From the NCBI GenBank assembly GCA_921293015.1, contig OV121094.1, positions 38,128,054 to 38,192,053 on the forward strand: a stretch of DNA of 64,000 nucleotides, read 5' to 3'. Each line of letters begins with the position of its first letter. The first letter of the stretch is position 1. The notes below the pieces were generated by a model. It worked only from the letters and a program-made list of their open reading frames with translations, was not told the DNA's origin and made no database searches. This document shows, one piece after another, positions 2,161 through 64,000 of the stretch. The position numbers were made by a program, and so were the translations under genes. Source of the stretch: Phorcus lineatus (taxonomy: Eukaryota; Mollusca; Gastropoda; Trochida; Trochidae).

Positions 2161-5100
2161 TAAGCATCTCATAACATCTACCCTCGGGTAGAAGTAAGAA
2201 CTTATGTTTATGAGTTCTGAAAACTTTGGTGGGGAAAACGTTATAGCTAAACACAACGTGCAGATGATGCAATGGAAATTGAACAAAAACTATTTATCAC
2301 AAAATATTCTATATTTATAAAGCTGTGTGAGCAGATTTCATTAGGACAGTAAATTCAAAAGTTACATATAGTATGATACTTTCATTTTGAGTTATTTATG
2401 AATGAAATAAGCACGCAGACACAATTTATTTTATACCGTTTGGCCGAACTCAGAATTTATGAAACCTTTTATAAATTGTAATTTTCTACTCCATAGAAAA
2501 TATTTGCAAGTTTAGAGGGATATTTCGTTTTTTAAATTTTCTTGCAACAAAGTACACAAACGACCATGGATATCTGTGTGTTATTTAAATAAACTGTTAC
2601 AAGCTTTTACATTTTATAAATGAACTGTGCACGTTATCAAGAGAAGTTTAAATGCAGTATCACCATAAAAGATGAGTATTCTTTGCACGAGAAAAACAAT
2701 CGGAGAAGGAATGACTTATCTGTCTGAGAGTAATATTACATGTATATTAATGCTTAAATAACAAATATTTTACATTCAGGACAACATCTTTTGACTCTAG
2801 TGGCAAGACGTAATAATATTTTGCCAATACAGAAAATAAATCAGAAAACATAAGTATAAAATGGATAACTGACCTTCTGTCCAAGAGATAACTTAACATA
2901 AACTGAAAAAAGCTGATGAACAAAGACGTCAGTTGCGAGCATATATAATTCATAGTCGCCGATTGTTGAAAAGACTCAAGGTGTATTGCAACTAAGTAAA
3001 GACAAATTCTTGTCATAAAATATTAAGCTCACACAGGTAAGCTTTTTCTGTTATGTAAGTGATGTTTTCTATTACATGAATACCAAGATCTTCTATAAGC
3101 GGTGACAAAAGTTACTCAAACATAGAAATTGTAAACTAAAATTGTTATCACGTAATCTCATATCACCTGTGGAATTTATGAAAATGAGCACTCACTATGG
3201 TTTCTTGGAGCAGAGTGTGATTTTATGAAAAAAATACTTTTTTATTTTATTGATAGATGAATTCAAAACTAAAACATTCGCCAAGGTTGCAATTTCGCCT
3301 CATTGACTTACAACATTTGAAGTATTATAATGCCAATATATGGTAATTTCTTGCTTGCTGAGAGGGAAATGTTTTAATTTATCTGCGCTTTTCCTAACGA
3401 TGTTATTAAGGGTTAATCAAAGGTTCATAAGTTACTCCTGAAATATTATTAAGAATCACCATCTTGACAACTCCTTGAAGGGCATTTAAAAGTGATGTGC
3501 ATAAGAATAGCCGACACGTCGCGAATTTCACACAAAAATAAGTTATTTTCAAAATATTCTTGTCTCTCTTAATATTAAACCTTAAAAATATATTTACTAT
3601 TTTCCTGCAGCTACAAAGCATCGTCACACGCTTCATTATTCTCACTTTTGGCTCTCACTTGATAGCGTCAAAAGTATTTCTAGAAATAAAAAAGCAATAT
3701 CAATCTGGTGGAGTAATAGGAGAATTCATGAAATTCAATTAAATAAATTTGAAAAAATCAGTTACAAAAGATAATCATAAGACCTTCATGTACAGATGCT
3801 GAAAATTTGAATCAGTCACCATTTCTTATCAATATGTCTTACAGTCGAAATTTTGGGATCATTTGATGAAAGTATTCAATGTACACTAAATTTATAAGTG
3901 ACAGATATATGAAATAGTAGGAACAGTTTTGTATAACCAAAAGGGAGTTGTGGTCATCAGTTGAACATTCAATATTGATATTTTTCTTATGTTATAATGT
4001 TTAATGAAAAATGATTTGAACATAATTTTTACAAATCTTTGGTAAAAATAAAAATAGGGTTATAAAAAGCATTTTCTAATATGACAATTTTATAAGATAA
4101 TGAATAAATTTAAGTTTAAACTTTTTTTACACTAATTTTACTGCCAAATTTGTCCGTTTGGACTAAGCGGATTCTTCTTAAAGTATGTGATAATGATTTT
4201 TTTTTCTAAACTTCTCAGGACATCGTAATTTTTAGATGTAAGATGCTTTAATATGTCGATTTTAAGTGAACACCAACTTAAATTATATTTGCACTAAATT
4301 TTGAAAGTAATTATACAGACTTGTTAAGCACTTCTATGTTTTTGTTTATTTCATTGAACAATTCTTTAATAGACTAATTTGGTACACATATTTTGTGCAT
4401 AACTTTTTCTAGGTATTGAGCACATTCAACGAACAAACTCGTTATGTCTCAGCGTGACCGCTTTTGTTAGAGTCATCAATATGTATATCAGTTCACAACA
4501 CCACCATATTTGTACCTTAAGGCCTTTAATTAACTGCTACTATGATATTAAATTTTCTACAAGGATTCTTCTTCCTCAAAGACAATTTGTGTGTAATTCA
4601 TAGGATAATTCCAGTGGGCACATATGGAGTTGACAATCCGGATTAATTGGTGAGAACTTTAAAGGCGCCAGCTTACACCCATTTTTGGTAAATACAACGA
4701 ATGCACGGATAGTGCGTGTCTCTTGATATTACTAAAGATCCACAGTAATATAATGTACCATGGAGAGGGCTTTACTAAGTTGGATAACTTGTTTCGTCAT
4801 TTCGTCAATGAATAAAATTTGTTTCATTCAGTGGACATTAGAGAAGTTATTTAGCAGATATGAAAGTTATTTCTAAAGGACCGGAAGTACTGAATACAAC
4901 TCTGTTTTAAATCCGCATAGAGGAATATTTGATTGCCTTATTGATTAAATATGCAATGTTTAATACTTCTAACTGAGTAAAGATATTACGAATGAAATTC
5001 ATACTGTTTTCAATTGTCCATATTTTTCTTTTTGTTCACAGCTTACCGTTGATTTCATTTAAAGCTTATGATGGTTAACTTCTCAGCTAAAGATACCCTG

Positions 5101-14323: not shown

Positions 14324-14373
<50 letters not shown>
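14324..14373. repeat. (AT)n microsatellite
   Basis: An uninterrupted TA dinucleotide run of about 50 bases. It is long enough to be length-polymorphic and to extrude a hairpin. Confidence 0.95.
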
Positions 14374-44350: not shown

Positions 44351-44616
44351 TATGTATCTTTCAGCAAAAGGACTTTTTCATTTGCTTTTCCTTCAAAAAT
44401 CATTCTGGCTGTTGTAAATGTTGGGAATTGTGATTTACTGACATTAATTGGGAATTCGTTTTATACGATAATGTATGATATTATATCTAATGCACAACGT
44501 CACTGTATATTTGTCCGTAGAAGGTCGTATACAGTTGATTTCTGGGTAAATGTGTGTTCGAGTTAGTATGGATCAAATAACAGCCACTATACATTCATAT
44601 ATATCAATGCCAAACT

Positions 44617-44628
44617 ATAATATATATG

Positions 44629-44686
<58 letters not shown>
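44617..44686. repeat. (AT)n microsatellite
   Basis: An AT dinucleotide run of about 70 bases, interrupted by TG at two places. The 86-codon frame across it (44626-44886) is a by-product of the repeat. Confidence 0.92.
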
Positions 44687-44688
<2 letters not shown>

Positions 44689-47600
44689 AATATTGATATC
44701 AATCTTCATTTTAAAGCGCATTATGACATTTTGTCTAGAATTGGCAATAATATGCTAAATGGTTGCCATGACCATATTAATTTTTCTCAAATCCATAGGA
44801 ATATCCAAGTACACGCGCACCTGGCTATCGGCAACTTGAAAGGCTTTCAATTTGTAAACAGAAACTCAGATTTCGACAGAAGTTAGTAACATCATCATTC
44901 AAAGTCGTGTGTGGCCCATGTTGTTGCTAATGATTCCATCAGACAAACTGAAGTTGGCATATGAGACTTCCCTAGGAATAATGAAGGGCATCGTAAACTG
45001 ACATGTCAACAAATTGGATTTGTGAGAAAGTAATATGTTTCACCTCATCTAATGCCATCAATTAACTAACCTTACACGTTGCTTTAAAGATCATATTATG
45101 AAAGATCTTTCCCTTCTTCTGAATATTCTTAATTCGGTAAACGTTCTCCAAAATGTGTTAAAACTCATTACAACTGGTCTAAAAGTTTGCGTATGGAATA
45201 TATCTGTTGAAATACTTACATATTCCTATTAGCGTAAAATAATTAACCCTTTAATATCCTGATCAAGGCATCCCTACACAATCAGATTACTGGGTACTGA
45301 TGATAGTAAGGTCCGAATGACATCACGAGAAGAGCCTCTCTACAACACTAATAAATAATCTTGTACTGCTGCAGACATTTTTTAATTACACAATTACCGA
45401 CTAAAGTATAGAAATATCTGGTTTTCGATCTTCAAAATTTTTCCAAAAACATGACATGAACGTAGTACTGACATAAGTCTTGTCTGTGCGTTGGCTATGG
45501 TAATGCTGTTATGACATGTATTATTTTTCTCAAAACATCAAAAACTTGAGAATGCAGATTTTTTAACTTAACAGAGTCTTGTAAAGAGTTCTCATTAATT
45601 GTATACAAAGATAATTAAAAAATCTCTTATTTCTCTAGTTATACAAATAATGTTATGTATTGTTATCAGACGTATTACATGTGCTTGACATTTGCATATC
45701 AAATAATACGTACATACATACAGAAAACATATTAAAAAGGACAGGTATTTCAGGCACATCATTTTGGTGATCAGATAGACATGATCTAACTGGTAATACT
45801 CAAATAGCAGGTTGGACCTTATTAAGATTAGACCCAGGCAGACGTCACAATGAAAAAGAGATAGTTTTCCCTGGGGCATCGTATCAAAATTATGATTCCC
45901 AATATGATTGACCTTGGTAGTAAACGAAACTTTTTATCGATATTGTAACATGACTTGTAGTTATTAGAAGTCAAGAGCGAACTATGTTTGTGCATACTTA
46001 TTTCTGTGTGGAAAGGACTTTGCGAGTGTTCCATTATTGTGAGAGGAGTGGTAAGGTCTACCTAAATGTGCTTTACCTTCGTAATTAAAATACATAAAAG
46101 TGTACAGAATATACTAAATAGCGACATTTGTAATAGAAAGATATTACATTATACCTATTTAATTCTATACAAGAATAACATCTATAAAGCTCATCGATAA
46201 ATATCGTACATTCCCAGGAACAAAAGTTTAACAATAGTGACATTCATGACATAACATTGTGACGTCAAAACGGTTGGCCTTTGTCACGTCAAATAATGGG
46301 AAAGGCATTCGAGAGAAAGCGGCCACAACGAACAAAGAGGCAATCCTCGCCTTAGCTTATTTCCGGCATTGTCATTCAACACAGAGTTATCTTTCAAATG
46401 TACCAATCAGAATGGAAAATACAACGAAGCCTTGTTACAATACATATTGTCGTAGACGTTGATTAATGTGTAAGTTACGAACAGGTTTCAATGATTGAAA
46501 CTACTGAGGCTCTATTGCAACACCTGAAGTGTTTTATCTGTGCCAAAGCCTGCAAACCTATATTAACAATTTAACCGTTAAAATTTGCTGAAAGGACATC
46601 TATATTTGATTTGTATGTATAAATATCTAGTTGTTTAACGTTAGTCTCTTCTTACACTTTTATGGTCGCTGATACTTATGTACATACTGTGTTGTGAGAT
46701 TTCGATAACAGAAACATCTCTTTCTCTGTCATATTGTGTCAAAATGTGTAGCCAAATGTAAAAGAAATAGGTGAGAAACTAAAATTTTGAAAGTAATTAC
46801 AAAATCAATTTAAAGACGTCCAAGAAATGTAATTGTACAAATGAAAGTTACAGTGATGTAATTGAATAATTGTCGTTTGTTGCACTTCTATCTACAAACA
46901 CTTAAGAATATAACATTAATATCATTAGCCGCTTTTTACAACTTGTTTTCAAATTTAAGGGCTCTTAACTATTCTGTAATCTAATTTAATCAGTAAGACA
47001 AGATTTTCTGGATAACAACTTAATTAAGACTAAAAAGCAACAGCTACGCTAAATGGGATTAGCTTAAATTAAGGTTATGTAATATTTAGTACGTTGTATT
47101 TGAAGGAGAAATAGATTTCTCAGCAATATTTGCATCTTTAAATATGATAATGAGTTTACCGAATTTCCAGGTTTTAACACCAGTTAAGATATATAGTCGG
47201 CTATAATGTCTAAAAACAAATGCTTGCCGCTACATGACAATGTCCCCGCCGCTTATATTGAATTAAATGACATAAATTCACCAGTTTTGATAATTAGTGG
47301 AAGTCATGATATGCTAAACAGTTGTGTAGACCATGAAATTGTCTTTTGTCACACATTTTCATAAAGGTCTAAAGAGTTTTGAGGTAGCAAAAATATATTC
47401 TCAGAAGAGGCGTCAGTGAAGGTATTGCCTCATATGCAGTGTGGTACCATATTTCTTGATTTTGGACAGTTCATTAAATGTACTCGTAATGTTGACATGA
47501 GATTGAAAAGTGCAAATAGTGCTCTGATGACCTTAAAAATGAGATAAAGGTAAACATAGTTGACAGTTGCCACTTTATTCCGTAATGTAAACTGTCCCCA

Positions 47601-59279: not shown

Positions 59280-59280
59280 T

Positions 59281-59960
59281 GTAGAGAATTAACCCCCAAT
59301 TGCGATGGCCAAGGACCATATGTGGCCTTGACAAGGTTTTTGCCAAAACCTTGATTTCTCAATTAGTATAAGGTTTTATAACAGAAAACAAGTTTTATAA
59401 TGAAGCTATGTTTACAGGGATTCTGTGAATATGGTTGTCAAGTAGAATTGGTAAAGATTTCTTTTCAAATGCGTTGTAGAGGATTAACCCCCATTGGTCA
59501 TGGCCAAGGACCATATGTGGCCCAGACAGGTTTTTGTGTGATAACCTTGACTTCTCTGTTAATAATAGGTTCTATAGTGCAAAAAGGTAATCAAAATGCA
59601 GCTATACATACAGGGATTCTTTAAGTATTGTTGTCAAGTGGAGTTGGTAAAGATATCTTTCTATATGCATTGTAGAGAATTAACCCCAGTGGCTATGGCC
59701 GAGGACCATATTTGTCCTGGTGAATGTTTAGTGTGTAAACCTTAATTTCTCTGTTAAAATCTTATCATATGATACAAAAGTGGTATCAAATTGAAGCTAT
59801 GTTCCATGATTCTCGAACAAAATGGTTGTCAACTTGTATCAGTGGAGATTTATTTTTAATTATTGGGTTGCGGATGGGGTCATAGCTGGGGACCATATAT
59901 GGTCCCGTGGCATCGTAGGGTATTTGGGGGGAGGGGACCTTATACGGTCCCCGGGCACTC
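59281..59960. repeat. Tandem repeat, unit about 195 bp, with palindromes
   Basis: GTAGAG.ATTAACCCC occurs at 59281, 59476 and 59672, so the period is 195-196 bases. Each unit continues with ATGGCC.AGGACCATAT, an ACCTTGA.TTCTC segment, GAAGCTATG-like and ATGGTTGTCAA strings. A fourth, diverged partial unit follows from about 59868. Every unit carries a GGACCATAT...GGCC-type inverted repeat; the last part has a perfect 18-bp palindrome GGGACCATATATGGTCCC (59889-59906) and GGGGACCTTATACGGTCCCC (59933-59952). The array ends where the Penelope-like frame begins. Confidence 0.88.
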
Positions 59961-60035
59961 TAAGGGTTAAGTAATTTCATTGATATCATTCTGAAGCCTC
60001 TGTGTAGAAATGTTAAAAGTTATCTTAGAGATGGT

Positions 60036-61472
60036 TTGGATTTCTTATGTAAACTACCGAAACATGTTGCGCCAGGTACAAGTTTAGTTAGTTTTGATAT
60101 TGTTAACATGTATAATAACATTGATAAACAATTGGGTCTAGAAGCTATACAATATTGGTTAAACAAATGCAGATGTGACTTAGCCGACAGGTTTTCAGAT
60201 AGATTTATTCTAGATGCTCTTGATCTTGTAATATCCAATAATGTATTTTATTTTAATAGTGCATTCTATACACAAACTAAAGGCGTCGCTATGGGAACTA
60301 AAGTTGCTCCCACATATACAACCCTGGTTTTGGGATACCTTGAAACTTTCCTTTATGAGAAAGTTGGACAATCACTCGGACAGAATATGCAGGAGCATGT
60401 TGAACAGCATTGGAAAAGATTCTTGGATGACGGTTTCATGCCATTTATGGGAACAAAAGAGGAACTGTGTAAGTTGCATTGCATCCTGAACTCTTTAAGT
60501 CCATCTTTGAAATTCACTATGGAAACAAGTGACTCTAATTTGAATTTTTTGGACGTGACCGTGGTTGTAAAAGAGGACGGTCGGTTAGAGACGGATTTGT
60601 ACTATAAACCTACAGATACACATCAATATCTGGACTTTCAATCATGTCATCCAAGTCATACTAAGCGTAACATCCCGTACTGTCTCGCTAGAAGAATTTG
60701 TGCTATTGTAACAGATGACACACAAAAGAGGGAACGTTTAAAAGAACTCAAGGAATTTTTGTTGATACAAAATTATCCTGAAAGTCTAGTACAAGACAGT
60801 GTACAGAAAGCCGCTGTGTTAGATCAAAGTCGCCTCAGAGATCCTAACTCTAATAAACAGTGTGATAAATACATTGTCCCGTTGGTTTCCACCTTTAACC
60901 CTAACCATCAGAGCGCTGCTGCAATAATTGACAAAAACTTACCTATTTTACATCAAAGTAAAGAAATGGAAAAAGTTTTGTGTAAATCAAAAATTGTGAA
61001 CAGTCTTAAACAACCTAAAAATCTTCGGAAGTTATTAACTTCATCCAAGTTTGATTCAAGTGAGTTAGAACCAACTGTATCTAAATGCGGTGATTCACGC
61101 TGTCTTACATGTAAAAATATCATAATAGGCTCTTCTGTACATATGAATGAAAGTAAAGTGTTTTCTGTAAGACAAAATCTTAATTGTAACAGTAAAAATG
61201 TTGTTTATGTCATCACATGCTCTGGGTGCAATGAAAAAAACATTGGAAAAACTGAAATGAAGTTAAAATTACGCATGAATTTACACAGATCTCAGATTAA
61301 TCATCCAAAAAACCGTACACTTCCATTGAGTAAACATTTATTTGAGTGTGGAAACGGGCATTTTTCAGTTTTCCCAATGTATAAATTAAATTTTGATAAC
61401 AATAAACTTTTAGAAATAAAAGAAAGCAGATTTATCAAAATGTTTTCACCAAGGTTAAATTCTAGAACTTAA
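60036..61472 (+). CDS. Penelope-like reverse transcriptase / GIY-YIG endonuclease (5'-truncated)
   Basis: 478 codons from the first ATG; the frame is open 24 codons upstream to 59964 and was once longer. RT motifs by residue number from that ATG are LVSFDIVNMYNNI (motif A, Asp21), GVAMGTKVAPTYTTL (motif B, 83-97), RFLDDGF (motif C, Asp131 and Asp132), NLNFLDV (168-174) and LYYKPTDTHQYL (188-199). All three catalytic Asp residues are kept. A Cys-rich motif with Cys351, Cys356 and Cys359 precedes the nuclease, as usual for PLEs. The GIY-YIG domain has VVYVITC (389-395), NIGKT (402-406), Arg413 and Glu463; the Tyr of the YIG half is Asn402, which may weaken cleavage. No stop or frameshift interrupts the frame, so the insertion looks fairly young. 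The protein would reverse transcribe its own RNA after target nicking, if the missing N-terminus is not essential. Confidence 0.93.
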   Translation: MDFLCKLPKHVAPGTSLVSFDIVNMYNNIDKQLGLEAIQYWLNKCRCDLADRFSDRFILDALDLVISNNVFYFNSAFYTQTKGVAMGTKVAPTYTTLVLGYLETFLYEKVGQSLGQNMQEHVEQHWKRFLDDGFMPFMGTKEELCKLHCILNSLSPSLKFTMETSDSNLNFLDVTVVVKEDGRLETDLYYKPTDTHQYLDFQSCHPSHTKRNIPYCLARRICAIVTDDTQKRERLKELKEFLLIQNYPESLVQDSVQKAAVLDQSRLRDPNSNKQCDKYIVPLVSTFNPNHQSAAAIIDKNLPILHQSKEMEKVLCKSKIVNSLKQPKNLRKLLTSSKFDSSELEPTVSKCGDSRCLTCKNIIIGSSVHMNESKVFSVRQNLNCNSKNVVYVITCSGCNEKNIGKTEMKLKLRMNLHRSQINHPKNRTLPLSKHLFECGNGHFSVFPMYKLNFDNNKLLEIKESRFIKMFSPRLNSRT

Positions 61473-61528
61473 TGTTTTGCTGTACATGTATATCCTATTG
61501 TAACCTATATTGTGACGTAATAATGTAA

Positions 61529-61566
61529 TGACGTCATGTTGTACACGATGACGTTGCTAGGCAACG
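61529..61566 (+). promoter_or_regulatory. CRE and X-box motifs in the PLE 3' region
   Basis: A perfect CRE octamer TGACGTCA at 61529-61536 is followed at 61552-61566 by the inverted repeat CGTTGC-TAG-GCAACG, which fits the X-box bound by RFX factors. Both lie 20-55 bases before the ribozyme. In a pseudo-LTR this would be a plausible promoter, but activity is inferred from motifs only. Confidence 0.45.
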
Positions 61567-61583
61567 CATTATCCGTTGTTTGT

Positions 61584-61623
61584 ATGGCCTGAAGAGGCTC
61601 GTTGAGCTGAAAGCGCTAGCCAT
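61584..61623 (+). ncRNA. Type I hammerhead ribozyme (Penelope-associated)
   Basis: All core positions of a self-cleaving hammerhead are present. Stem I is ATGGC (61584-61588) with GCCAT (61619-61623). The first core strand is CTGAAGA (61589-61595, consensus CUGANGA). Stem II is GGCTC / GAGCT with loop GTT (61596-61608; one G-U pair). The second core strand is GAAA (61609-61612). Stem III is AGCGCT (61612-61617), self-complementary with no loop, and the cleavage triplet is CTA, cutting after 61618. A loopless stem III cannot fold well in one molecule, so cleavage would be expected in a dimer of two copies, as described for other minimal hammerheads of retroelements. The element RNA would be processed at this site. 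Confidence 0.93.
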
Positions 61624-61717
61624 TAAAATGGATTGTTTTTACTTCTAACTTCATCTTTTTTTTAATATTTAATACCTGGGAGCTGAACAGCAATTTCAAG
61701 ATTGTGAACTTTTTTCA

Positions 61718-61733
61718 TATATATATATATATA
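61718..61733. repeat. Short (AT)n run
   Basis: About 16 bases of AT dinucleotide, possibly near the end of the Penelope-like insertion. Confidence 0.85.
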
Positions 61734-61740
61734 GGCTGGC

Positions 61741-64000
61741 ATTAAAACTCTTACTGATCTTACTTCTTACAGTCAACTTTGCCATCATCATCTGTGCCAC
61801 TGTTTTTGGATACCTTTACAAGCCGGATTCATTTATCTTCTATAGACCCACTGACTGTTTTCTACATTCATCAACTGTGTGATTTTTAAGGACTGGTGAA
61901 TATATTTATTTAGCTAATTAGTGTGACTCATTTGATATTGTATTATAGCTTGTGTAAGCTTGATATTGTAACCTTAAACATTTTGTTTATTATTTGATTG
62001 ATAAATTGTAATTAATATACAATTGTCTTGTTATATTTTGCTGGTTTGACTGGGGATATTTTCCTATTCCAAATTCATTCGTAACAACACCTTGAACAAC
62101 GTAAAGTGGCAGTAACATACTATTTGATCGACTTAGTTCTTCATTTGATCTTTGTTAAACATAAGTTCATGCTAAAGGTTTTCAAAGGGTCAAACCATCT
62201 CATTTCTCAACCTGATCACCCATCCTTAGTTGTAATTGAAATTATTAAATATCAAGCAAACACCACTGGTGGTCATTTTTGTGTGAACACATTTTAATCA
62301 CTGGAGGTTTGGAAATCATTCATATATCTTTTTCGATCGTGGTATGTTTGTTTTTGAACTTCTCTTTTTGATTAAAAACCTCTGTCTTTTAATGTTTTAA
62401 TATTAGAGAAGTTTTTATATAAAGAGCTTACTCATTCAACATAAGTTTTCCAAGTAGAGCAAATAATGATATACATTGATATCAACAAGGAATGACATGC
62501 TAGGCAATTTCATATCAAAATAATAATACAGGGGCTTCTAAATACAGACATGTATATGCAACAGATGCTGGATCTGACAATTAAGTCAACTTCTTGAAGT
62601 TTACTGCCTCCGTTGATCTAATAAGAAGTCAATTGTTTCTCTGAAAGAGGAGGACGGCATATCTGTATGTCTATGTTCATTTGTCTTTTTAAGATAATCA
62701 TTTGTGTGTTTCTGTATTATTTTGAAATGTATTTTTCTAGTTACATATTTTGTTCATTCAAAGGATGCCTGTATGAATTTCAAGTAAGAGAGTATATCCT
62801 CATTACTTGATAATAATATTATGGAATGTGGAATTAATTAAAGACTGAAGAATCTTTGCATATCAATTCTTTACCAACCGGTTTCACACAAATGTGATCA
62901 TCAGGGTATGATACATGTTGTTGCTACGCATGTATAAAACCATTTCCTCTCAAAAAAGGTTTCTCCGTCATACATTCCGTCACAACCTCTGTCCTTCTAC
63001 ATGCCAGGCACGGTCTTTAATTCTAGACATCTGATTTGATGCGATCAAAGGTAGTTGTCCATTTAGCGACGCCGTTAAAAATATCAGTCAAAACGCCTCA
63101 GATATTTCCATATCTTTTCGGAAAGCTAAACTTTGTTCGAAAATACGCTTTGAATCTTCTTTACATAGCACCTTCGCCTTTTTGGCAACATCGTCATTTC
63201 ATAGGTCTCTGTCACCTCAAATATTTTATACATGCACGCGGTAATTTCATTTGTTGCAATATTGCAAGCTAGTTTATGTTTCAATGTTTTGCTGCTTGGG
63301 GAACCTGCCTGAAGCTCGTGCAGTTGTTGCGGTGTCCAGTTTAGGGCGAACATTTTGAAACTGTGTTAGACGAATTGTCCAAAACAAAGGATCGTGAAGG
63401 TTTCCTCTGTTCTTACAACAGGTTTGTTTGTGAATTTTTCACTGAAAAAGAAGTTGATGCTTTTTGTTCATCTAAAAAAATAGATGCCTAGCTATCAAAC
63501 AATTTAAAATTAAGAAACTTTTCCTCTCCTTGTAACTTTTTAGAGTGTTTCCCTTTTCACCTAAGGTGCACGATCCACTTTCCACTTTTTTGTTGGTCCA
63601 AATGTAAGTACAGTGCAGCCAAAATGACAATCGAAGTACAATTCTTTTATCCTACTCAATCTTTATAAAAGTATTTCGTGTAAAAAAAAAAACATTGGAG
63701 CTTTTTGTGTGGTTTTGAACAAAAACTCATCACATGATTCATTTCTCTGTTGCACCTCAAGTCAAATGGTTCATGAAAAGTGTGTTTTTAAAAATTCTTT
63801 TTTTCACCTGAAGTAGCTATAAAAATGTGTTTTAACTAGATGAGATATATGTAGTTCGTACAATCGTTTATTTTGATTTTCCGACAAATTATATTGTATG
63901 TATCTCAATCAAAAGCTGTAGTAACATGTGCAGGTGTTTTTGTAATGGATTTACACTAAACATGAATATGATGTTGCTATCCGTAAGCAATTGTTATTGA
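61741..64000. other. Non-coding sequence, possibly starting with more PLE terminal repeat
   Basis: The first 200 bases are less AT-rich than the rest and may be the remainder of the pseudo-LTR. Further right no gene is confirmed. On the minus strand, ATG at 63353 opens a frame MFALNWTPQQLHELQAG with a possible donor (GCAG|GTTCCC), while the whole 75-codon frame to 63126 shows no domain. It is only a weak first-exon candidate. Confidence 0.4.

Follow-up and report, generated by a model that had tools for sequence, protein, structure and literature searches.

Minimal hammerhead motifs with a loopless, self-complementary stem III in Penelope-like elements of Phorcus lineatus

A minimal hammerhead motif marks the 3' region of a Penelope-like element (PLE) in the genome of Phorcus lineatus. 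The window, i.e. the whole 64-kb stretch of DNA analysed, holds a single hammerhead motif according to pattern scans. The motif is found at positions 61584-61623 (+), and combines a complete core with stems I and II, its stem III being reduced to a self-complementary stretch with no loop. As judged from structure and genomic setting, it is probably a minimal type I hammerhead of the kind known from PLE pseudo-LTRs (pLTRs), pairing as a double hammerhead; cleavage in the dimeric form is taken from the literature, and the loopless stem III is consistent with it. The class has already been described, PLE-associated minimal hammerheads being reported to cleave as dimers, and the Phorcus sequences are another example of it; among PLEs, a motif of this kind is nothing unusual. 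The genome hosts two related PLE families, each with hundreds of ribozyme copies, which have different stems and the same loopless design. Their direct, inverted and minimal tandem arrangements make the dimer idea, as well as a link between cleavage and insertion, testable by comparison.

The 40 bases read AUGGC-CUGAAGA-GGCUC-GUU-GAGCU-GAA-AGCGCU-A-GCCAU. Hammerheads are organized in the order stem I, core, stem II, core, stem III, pre-cleavage base, stem I. In the window motif the 5' strand of stem I (AUGGC, 61584-61588, +) pairs over 5 bp with the 3' strand (GCCAU, 61619-61623, +, by direct reading), and both sides differ in the second family, called family B. The core segments CUGAAGA (61589-61595, +) and GAAA (61609-61612, +) were recognized by direct reading and by pattern scan. 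Stem II (GGCUC-GUU-GAGCU, 61596-61608, +) is made by 5 bp, 61596-61600 with 61604-61608, and by a loop of 3 bases, read directly as GUU (61601-61603, +). Stem III is the loopless palindrome AGCGCU (61612-61617, +), and the A at 61618 (+) precedes the cleavage site predicted from hammerhead anatomy. The features by which the class is recognized, CUGANGA, GAA(A) and a U-H at the cleavage site, are all found in the window motif, and stem III is reduced and self-complementary in both families (AGCGCU in family A, to which the window motif belongs, AGUACU in family B).

The first pair of stem II (61596/61608) is a G.U wobble. The base of stem II is usually G-C in hammerheads, whereas G.U is found in 47 of the 48 family A copies covering the position, which counts against the reading favoured here; family B has G-C. 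The coordinates and stems of the motif given in an earlier note on this DNA are correct, and agree with direct reading. Its account of core and stems stands, and overlooked a possible outer stem I of 7 pairs, which was seen in the third fold, that of a longer RNA, and would join AUCCGUU (61571-61577, +) to AAUGGAU (61627-61633, +).

The motif begins 111 bases 3' of an open frame of 478 aa (60036-61472, +), which corresponds to the C-terminal part of a PLE protein, apparently with a portion of the reverse transcriptase, followed through by a GIY-YIG-like domain among its matches. Pfam scores of the window frame are 21.0 bits for GIY-YIG, just below the cut-off of 22.6, and a weak 14.6 bits for RVT_1 (cut-off 29.6); the window copy is missing the N-terminal part. 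Among relatives, RVT_1 reaches 16.7 bits in locus L066; GIY-YIG scores above the cut-off in L067 (28.9) and in family B (40.4), and below it in L066 (18.0). On these sequence matches the frame is assigned to a PLE with a GIY-YIG endonuclease. The earlier claim that the hammerhead lies behind a Penelope-like ORF is borne out, and the motif sits in the 3' UTR (pLTR region) of the element.

Matches to other genome copies start only at about 59962 and end at 61733, so the PLE copy in the window (59962-61733, +) lacks its 5' part. It shows just the 3' end, with a tail and a TA repeat (61672-61733, +) which are present in long-end copies and missing from short-end copies. Direct or inverted pLTRs, an optional tail and AT-rich flanks were seen in other copies. 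The motif is located in the repeat flanking the PLE: it lies behind the frame in the window, and at both ends of direct repeats in L066, L067 and L068. In L066 and L067 the two ribozymes are 3751 and 3730 bp apart, respectively, their flanks are repeated, and they enclose a stretch with PLE frames. The first ATG frame of L066 (446-1660) has no Pfam match. A 196-bp tandem repeat (2.2 copies, 59280-59711) is found in the window upstream of the truncated PLE. Runs of AT dinucleotides, the type of sequence where element copies end, occur at 14324-14373 and 44616-44693.

Retrozymes are non-autonomous elements with a small circular RNA; passages of PMC7229834 describe them as short tandem monomers of 150-450 bp. 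The window motif departs from such monomers, which have no ORF, as it lies behind a coding sequence and occurs there only once in the whole window. Among 33 pairs of neighbouring copies drawn from the matches listed, none is direct at a distance of 150-450 bp. One direct pair 425 bp apart, in L027, is composed of PLE fragments.

The assembly searched measures 957.8 Mb in 74 contigs. A 251-base query gave at least 43 genome matches (998 candidates, 40 scored), and the 36-base ribozyme pattern of family A was found with up to 2 mismatches at 597 places (294 + 303), against 0 for the reversed-pattern control. In 52 aligned copies, minor residues occupy 26 of 1904 cells in the hammerhead columns, 113 of 4087 at 61450-61568 and 307 of 3855 at 61634-61720, a contrast biased upward because some of the copies were found by the hammerhead pattern, and the last interval includes the variable tail. 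Over one string of 63 bases, 27 of the 52 copies are identical. Copies of family A are too alike to reveal compensatory changes, and family B was used instead.

The family B hammerhead reads AUUCAC-CUGAUGA-GACC-UUAU-GGUC-GAA-AGUACU-U-GUGAAU (loci L013 and L036). Motifs of this type were located at 1379 (+), 2300 (-) and 2865 (-) in L013, at 1799 (-) in L036, and at 110 and 3086 (+) in L068; allowing up to 2 mismatches, the pattern marks 320 places in the genome (158 + 162), and the control none. Compared over 383 positions, the protein frame of family B, taken from L068, agrees with that of the window copy in 198 (52%). The hammerhead has the same place relative to the PLE, and its stems are different yet paired, the palindrome being AGUACU. 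When the two families are aligned, all 47 of 47 cells are paired, and both sides are changed in 5 of the 12 pairs, of which 3 belong to stem I, 1 to stem II and 1, the middle pair of the hexamer, to the palindrome. Structures slid along the same alignment as controls show no pair changed on both sides. The alignment includes 5 rows, 4 of which are distinct, and is effectively one contrast, A versus B. Within this contrast the check on the stems proposed beforehand in the earlier note gave a favourable outcome, as the stems differ and pairing is kept. In L068, each end of the direct B repeat has a reversed family A fragment 3' of its family B ribozyme (278-347 and 3232-3301), and the two fragments are identical in 70 of 70 bases.

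AGCGCU is loopless and identical to its reverse complement, so a single RNA is unable to form stem III. Used as stem III, the hexamer would leave one RNA unclosed, and two copies could join as a double hammerhead, with stem III (6 bp) and stem I formed between copies, and stem II within each copy. Reasoning from the anatomy, each core would find in the other copy the strands that complete its stems III and I. The partners could reside about 3-3.75 kb from each other in a single transcript spanning a direct repeat of the element, or in two RNAs, and cleavage after 61618 would release unit-length RNA from tandem transcripts. The motif is single in the window and its PLE is 5'-truncated, so there is no tandem partner there, and pairing in trans alone is open; the window copy could act solely in this way, if at all. 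Of the dimer claim in the earlier note, the part that holds is that the loopless stem III fits the reported dimer class; that this very copy works as a dimer does not follow for a lone, 5'-truncated unit.

The predicted fold of the 40-base RNA is no more stable than those of its shuffled versions (z -0.04), the outcome expected if a single molecule is unable to close stem III. The computed energy of the 40-mer is -27.1 kcal/mol for the double-hammerhead dimer versus -9.4 for a single RNA in which stems I and II are formed. The lowest-energy dimer is another fold (-29.3 versus -27.1 kcal/mol), and 63-mers carrying a non-palindromic hexamer dimerize, by computation, about as well as the natural 63-mer. 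Thermodynamics therefore permits the dimer and cannot discriminate. A genuine ribozyme might alternatively work as a slow monomer aided by the PLE protein, dimerization being incidental, a reading which we regard as possible and on the whole unlikely. The hammerhead of the Anolis Poseidon element PAc, according to passages of PMC11167929, cleaved in the presence of the protein only, endonuclease-dead protein included, and the outer stem I could stabilize a monomer of the Phorcus motif. However, both families keep a self-complementary hexamer despite the two-sided change of its middle pair, and a loopless monomer needs no such complementarity.

The pairing of two copies into a double hammerhead has precedents. 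Hammerhead variants associated with PLEs, in which stem III is diminished, were reportedly described by Lunse, Weinberg and Breaker in 2017, with cleavage as dimers according to the title; like the window motif they are small hammerheads beside a PLE, and no difference in kind was found. In the hammerheads of the newt satellite and of the avocado sunblotch viroid, stem III is short and bears a loop. Passages of PMC6155905 and PMC6466107 describe this stem (Forster 1988) as weak, and as extended and shared when two copies pair; unlike the window motif, neither belongs to a PLE. The presence of minimal type I hammerheads in PLEs is recorded in passages of PMC7761336, PMC6155905, PMC6466107 and PMC7229834. 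Helix III, or its non-conserved bases, is absent in those mentioned in parts of PMC7761336 and PMC6155905, and their possible action as dimers is considered in parts of PMC7761336 and PMC6466107. The minimal hammerheads of Cervera and de la Pena (2014), as described in passages of PMC7761336 and PMC6155905, are type I, lie in pseudo-LTRs, and are sometimes in tandem. They share with the window motif the type and the reduced helix III; the window copy is single and 5'-truncated. The activity in vivo and the role of PLE hammerheads are 'still a mystery' in the words of a passage of PMC7761336.

Anolis PAc resembles the Phorcus PLE, in the passages of PMC11167929 used here, for a pLTR hammerhead with stems I and II, reverse transcriptase and GIY-YIG domains, a tail and an AT-rich target. 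The PAc ORF starts at stem II according to the same passages, and the first ATG frame of L066 about 110 bp downstream of the motif. A palindromic stem III, present in the Phorcus motif, is not described for PAc in these passages. The Penelope elements of Adineta vaga are likewise similar to those of Phorcus: their pLTRs occur in both direct and inverted arrangement, their head-to-head joints contain palindromes, and one of the inverted pLTRs may carry a tail (passages of PMC3846280); the word 'hammerhead' occurs 0 times in the main text of that paper.

The motif could also be a passenger, a former ribozyme retained only because its copies are recent and similar to one another. The copy in the window is 5'-truncated, the core or a stem is broken in some family A copies of the 52-copy alignment, and the 63-base string found in 27 of the 52 rows reflects recent spread as much as constraint. 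Proteins of families A and B differ at about half of their positions, yet the core and the three stems are kept in both, and we consider the passenger reading rather improbable.

Neighbouring copies were paired when found within 8 kb of each other among the matches listed (100 of the 597 of family A, 100 of the 320 of family B). The 33 pairs so obtained include 27 minus-then-plus (head-to-head) pairs, no plus-then-minus pair and 6 direct pairs; 4 of the 6 direct pairs, again among the matches listed, are spaced by 2976-3751 bp. As most listed pairs are inverted, few listed copies are able to pair in cis. The earlier note had linked RNA processing to a tandem mode of replication. This proposal finds no support in the arrangement of copies, 27 of the 33 listed neighbour pairs being inverted, nor in passages of PMC11167929, by which hammerhead mutants left insertion of Anolis PAc in vitro unaffected, and no RNA-seq reads ended at the hammerhead cleavage site.

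Two head-to-head ribozymes with up to 30 bases between the 14-base pattern arms occur at 23 places genome-wide, and at none in the control. Tail types were called in 22 pairs by simple string marks, on the stretch common to both ends; 4 pairs (L022, L023, L026, L031) came from a tail-containing query, and 18 (L039, L049-L065) from ribozyme patterns. One long-tail arm is combined with one short 3' end in 21 of the 22 pairs, and the remaining pair is short-short. The tail is called optional in the elements of PMC3846280, in the passages used here, whereas the long/short combination is close to a rule in Phorcus head-to-head pairs. It may be that the ends of a single insertion arise from two different start sites on the RNA.

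The head-to-head places, and the 27 of 33 listed neighbour pairs in the same orientation, lend themselves to another interpretation, in which the self-complementary stretches serve as DNA or cDNA, in strand joining or self-priming, and not in RNA cutting; self-priming from palindromes at such joints is proposed in passages of PMC3846280. Conservation of the unpaired core bases, common to both families, stands against it, as strand joining needs neither; we hold this role to be very improbable, and favour the hammerhead paired as an RNA dimer.

Direct ribozyme units separated by up to 60 spacer bases were found as 11 exact pattern matches (7 + 4), with none in the controls. For 5 of the 11, the joint is compatible with a position no more than 2 bases away from the predicted cleavage site (P about 0.003 under a uniform null, 0.014 with a wider target), and some tandem joints carry microhomology or inserted bases. 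Tandem ribozyme units of 50 bases lie at 1526-1625 in L039, and joints with multiple jumps are found just 5' of the ribozyme in L051 and L052; both look like repeated template switching.

Near the site, 98 family A copies have their 5' start, 11 of them in 61609-61618 and 87 in 61619-61628; the counts become 10 and 61 when 27 of the 98 rows, classed as direct or mutated, are removed. There is no peak of family A starts at 61619 itself (3 starts), and in 31 of the 98 rows the upstream partner is the reverse complement of the element itself. Further family A starts fall in 61585-61604 (n=47), in 61569-61588 (n=137, 100 of them listed) and in 61629-61642 (14 starts); for the latter interval the anchor is intact in 17 of 47 copies, versus 39 of 46 for the near-site anchor. 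In family B (39 rows, 3 in the control) the 9 positions preceding the site account for 9 starts and the 10 following it for 26 (p 0.011), 10 of which fall in the first 6 positions. The other 16 lie at +7 to +10, beside the 15-base anchor, a place in which chance matches accumulate; a further 4 rows start at +11. The family A step is thus not clearly replicated.

From the 5 joints near the site, and the 61 starts on its 3' side against 10 on the 5' side, it might be argued that RNA cut by the ribozyme is the template of reverse transcription in vivo, and that the cut leaves footprints in the genome. In view of the missing peak at 61619, and of family B having no clear step, this is doubtful, and we think it quite improbable. 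Stalling of reverse transcription at stem I, or microhomology with the AT-rich flanks, are rival explanations of the step in family A. No published account of ribozyme-site joints in PLE copies was found among titles and abstract openings, a partial coverage that is no proof of novelty.

The bare core CTGANGA-N13-GAAA occurs once in the window, against 0.18 expected, and at least once in 14 of 100 shuffles; the core by itself is therefore within chance. Synthetic sequence reproducing the dinucleotide content of the window (20 Mb) was scanned on both strands for the full structure, setting stem I at 5 bp or more and stem II at 4 bp or more; 1 match was obtained with any stem III, and 0 for the fully paired loopless hexamer form. 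That the window motif is a chance lookalike, as the bare core in shuffles and the missing Rfam match might suggest, has a negligible probability, and was rejected for the full structure on account of the synthetic-sequence scan, of the hundreds of genome copies and of the covariation between families A and B.

The Rfam search proposed in the earlier note returned no hammerhead match, either in the window or in five further loci at E<=1. Rfam 15 gave 0 matches at gathering thresholds in the whole window, and 5 matches at E<=10 in the interval 61400-61800, none to a hammerhead family. The motif is not placed under any Rfam family, and its class is defined by the literature; the Rfam models used miss the loopless PLE hammerhead, which is relevant to annotation. 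All the 21 matches obtained at E<=1 in the further loci (L066, L067, L068, L039, L013) are to microRNA families, below gathering scores. Those in L039 and L068 fall within inverted repeats or TA runs. A hairpin at 414-496 in L013 matches several microRNA models on both strands, again below gathering scores, and is probably an inverted repeat.
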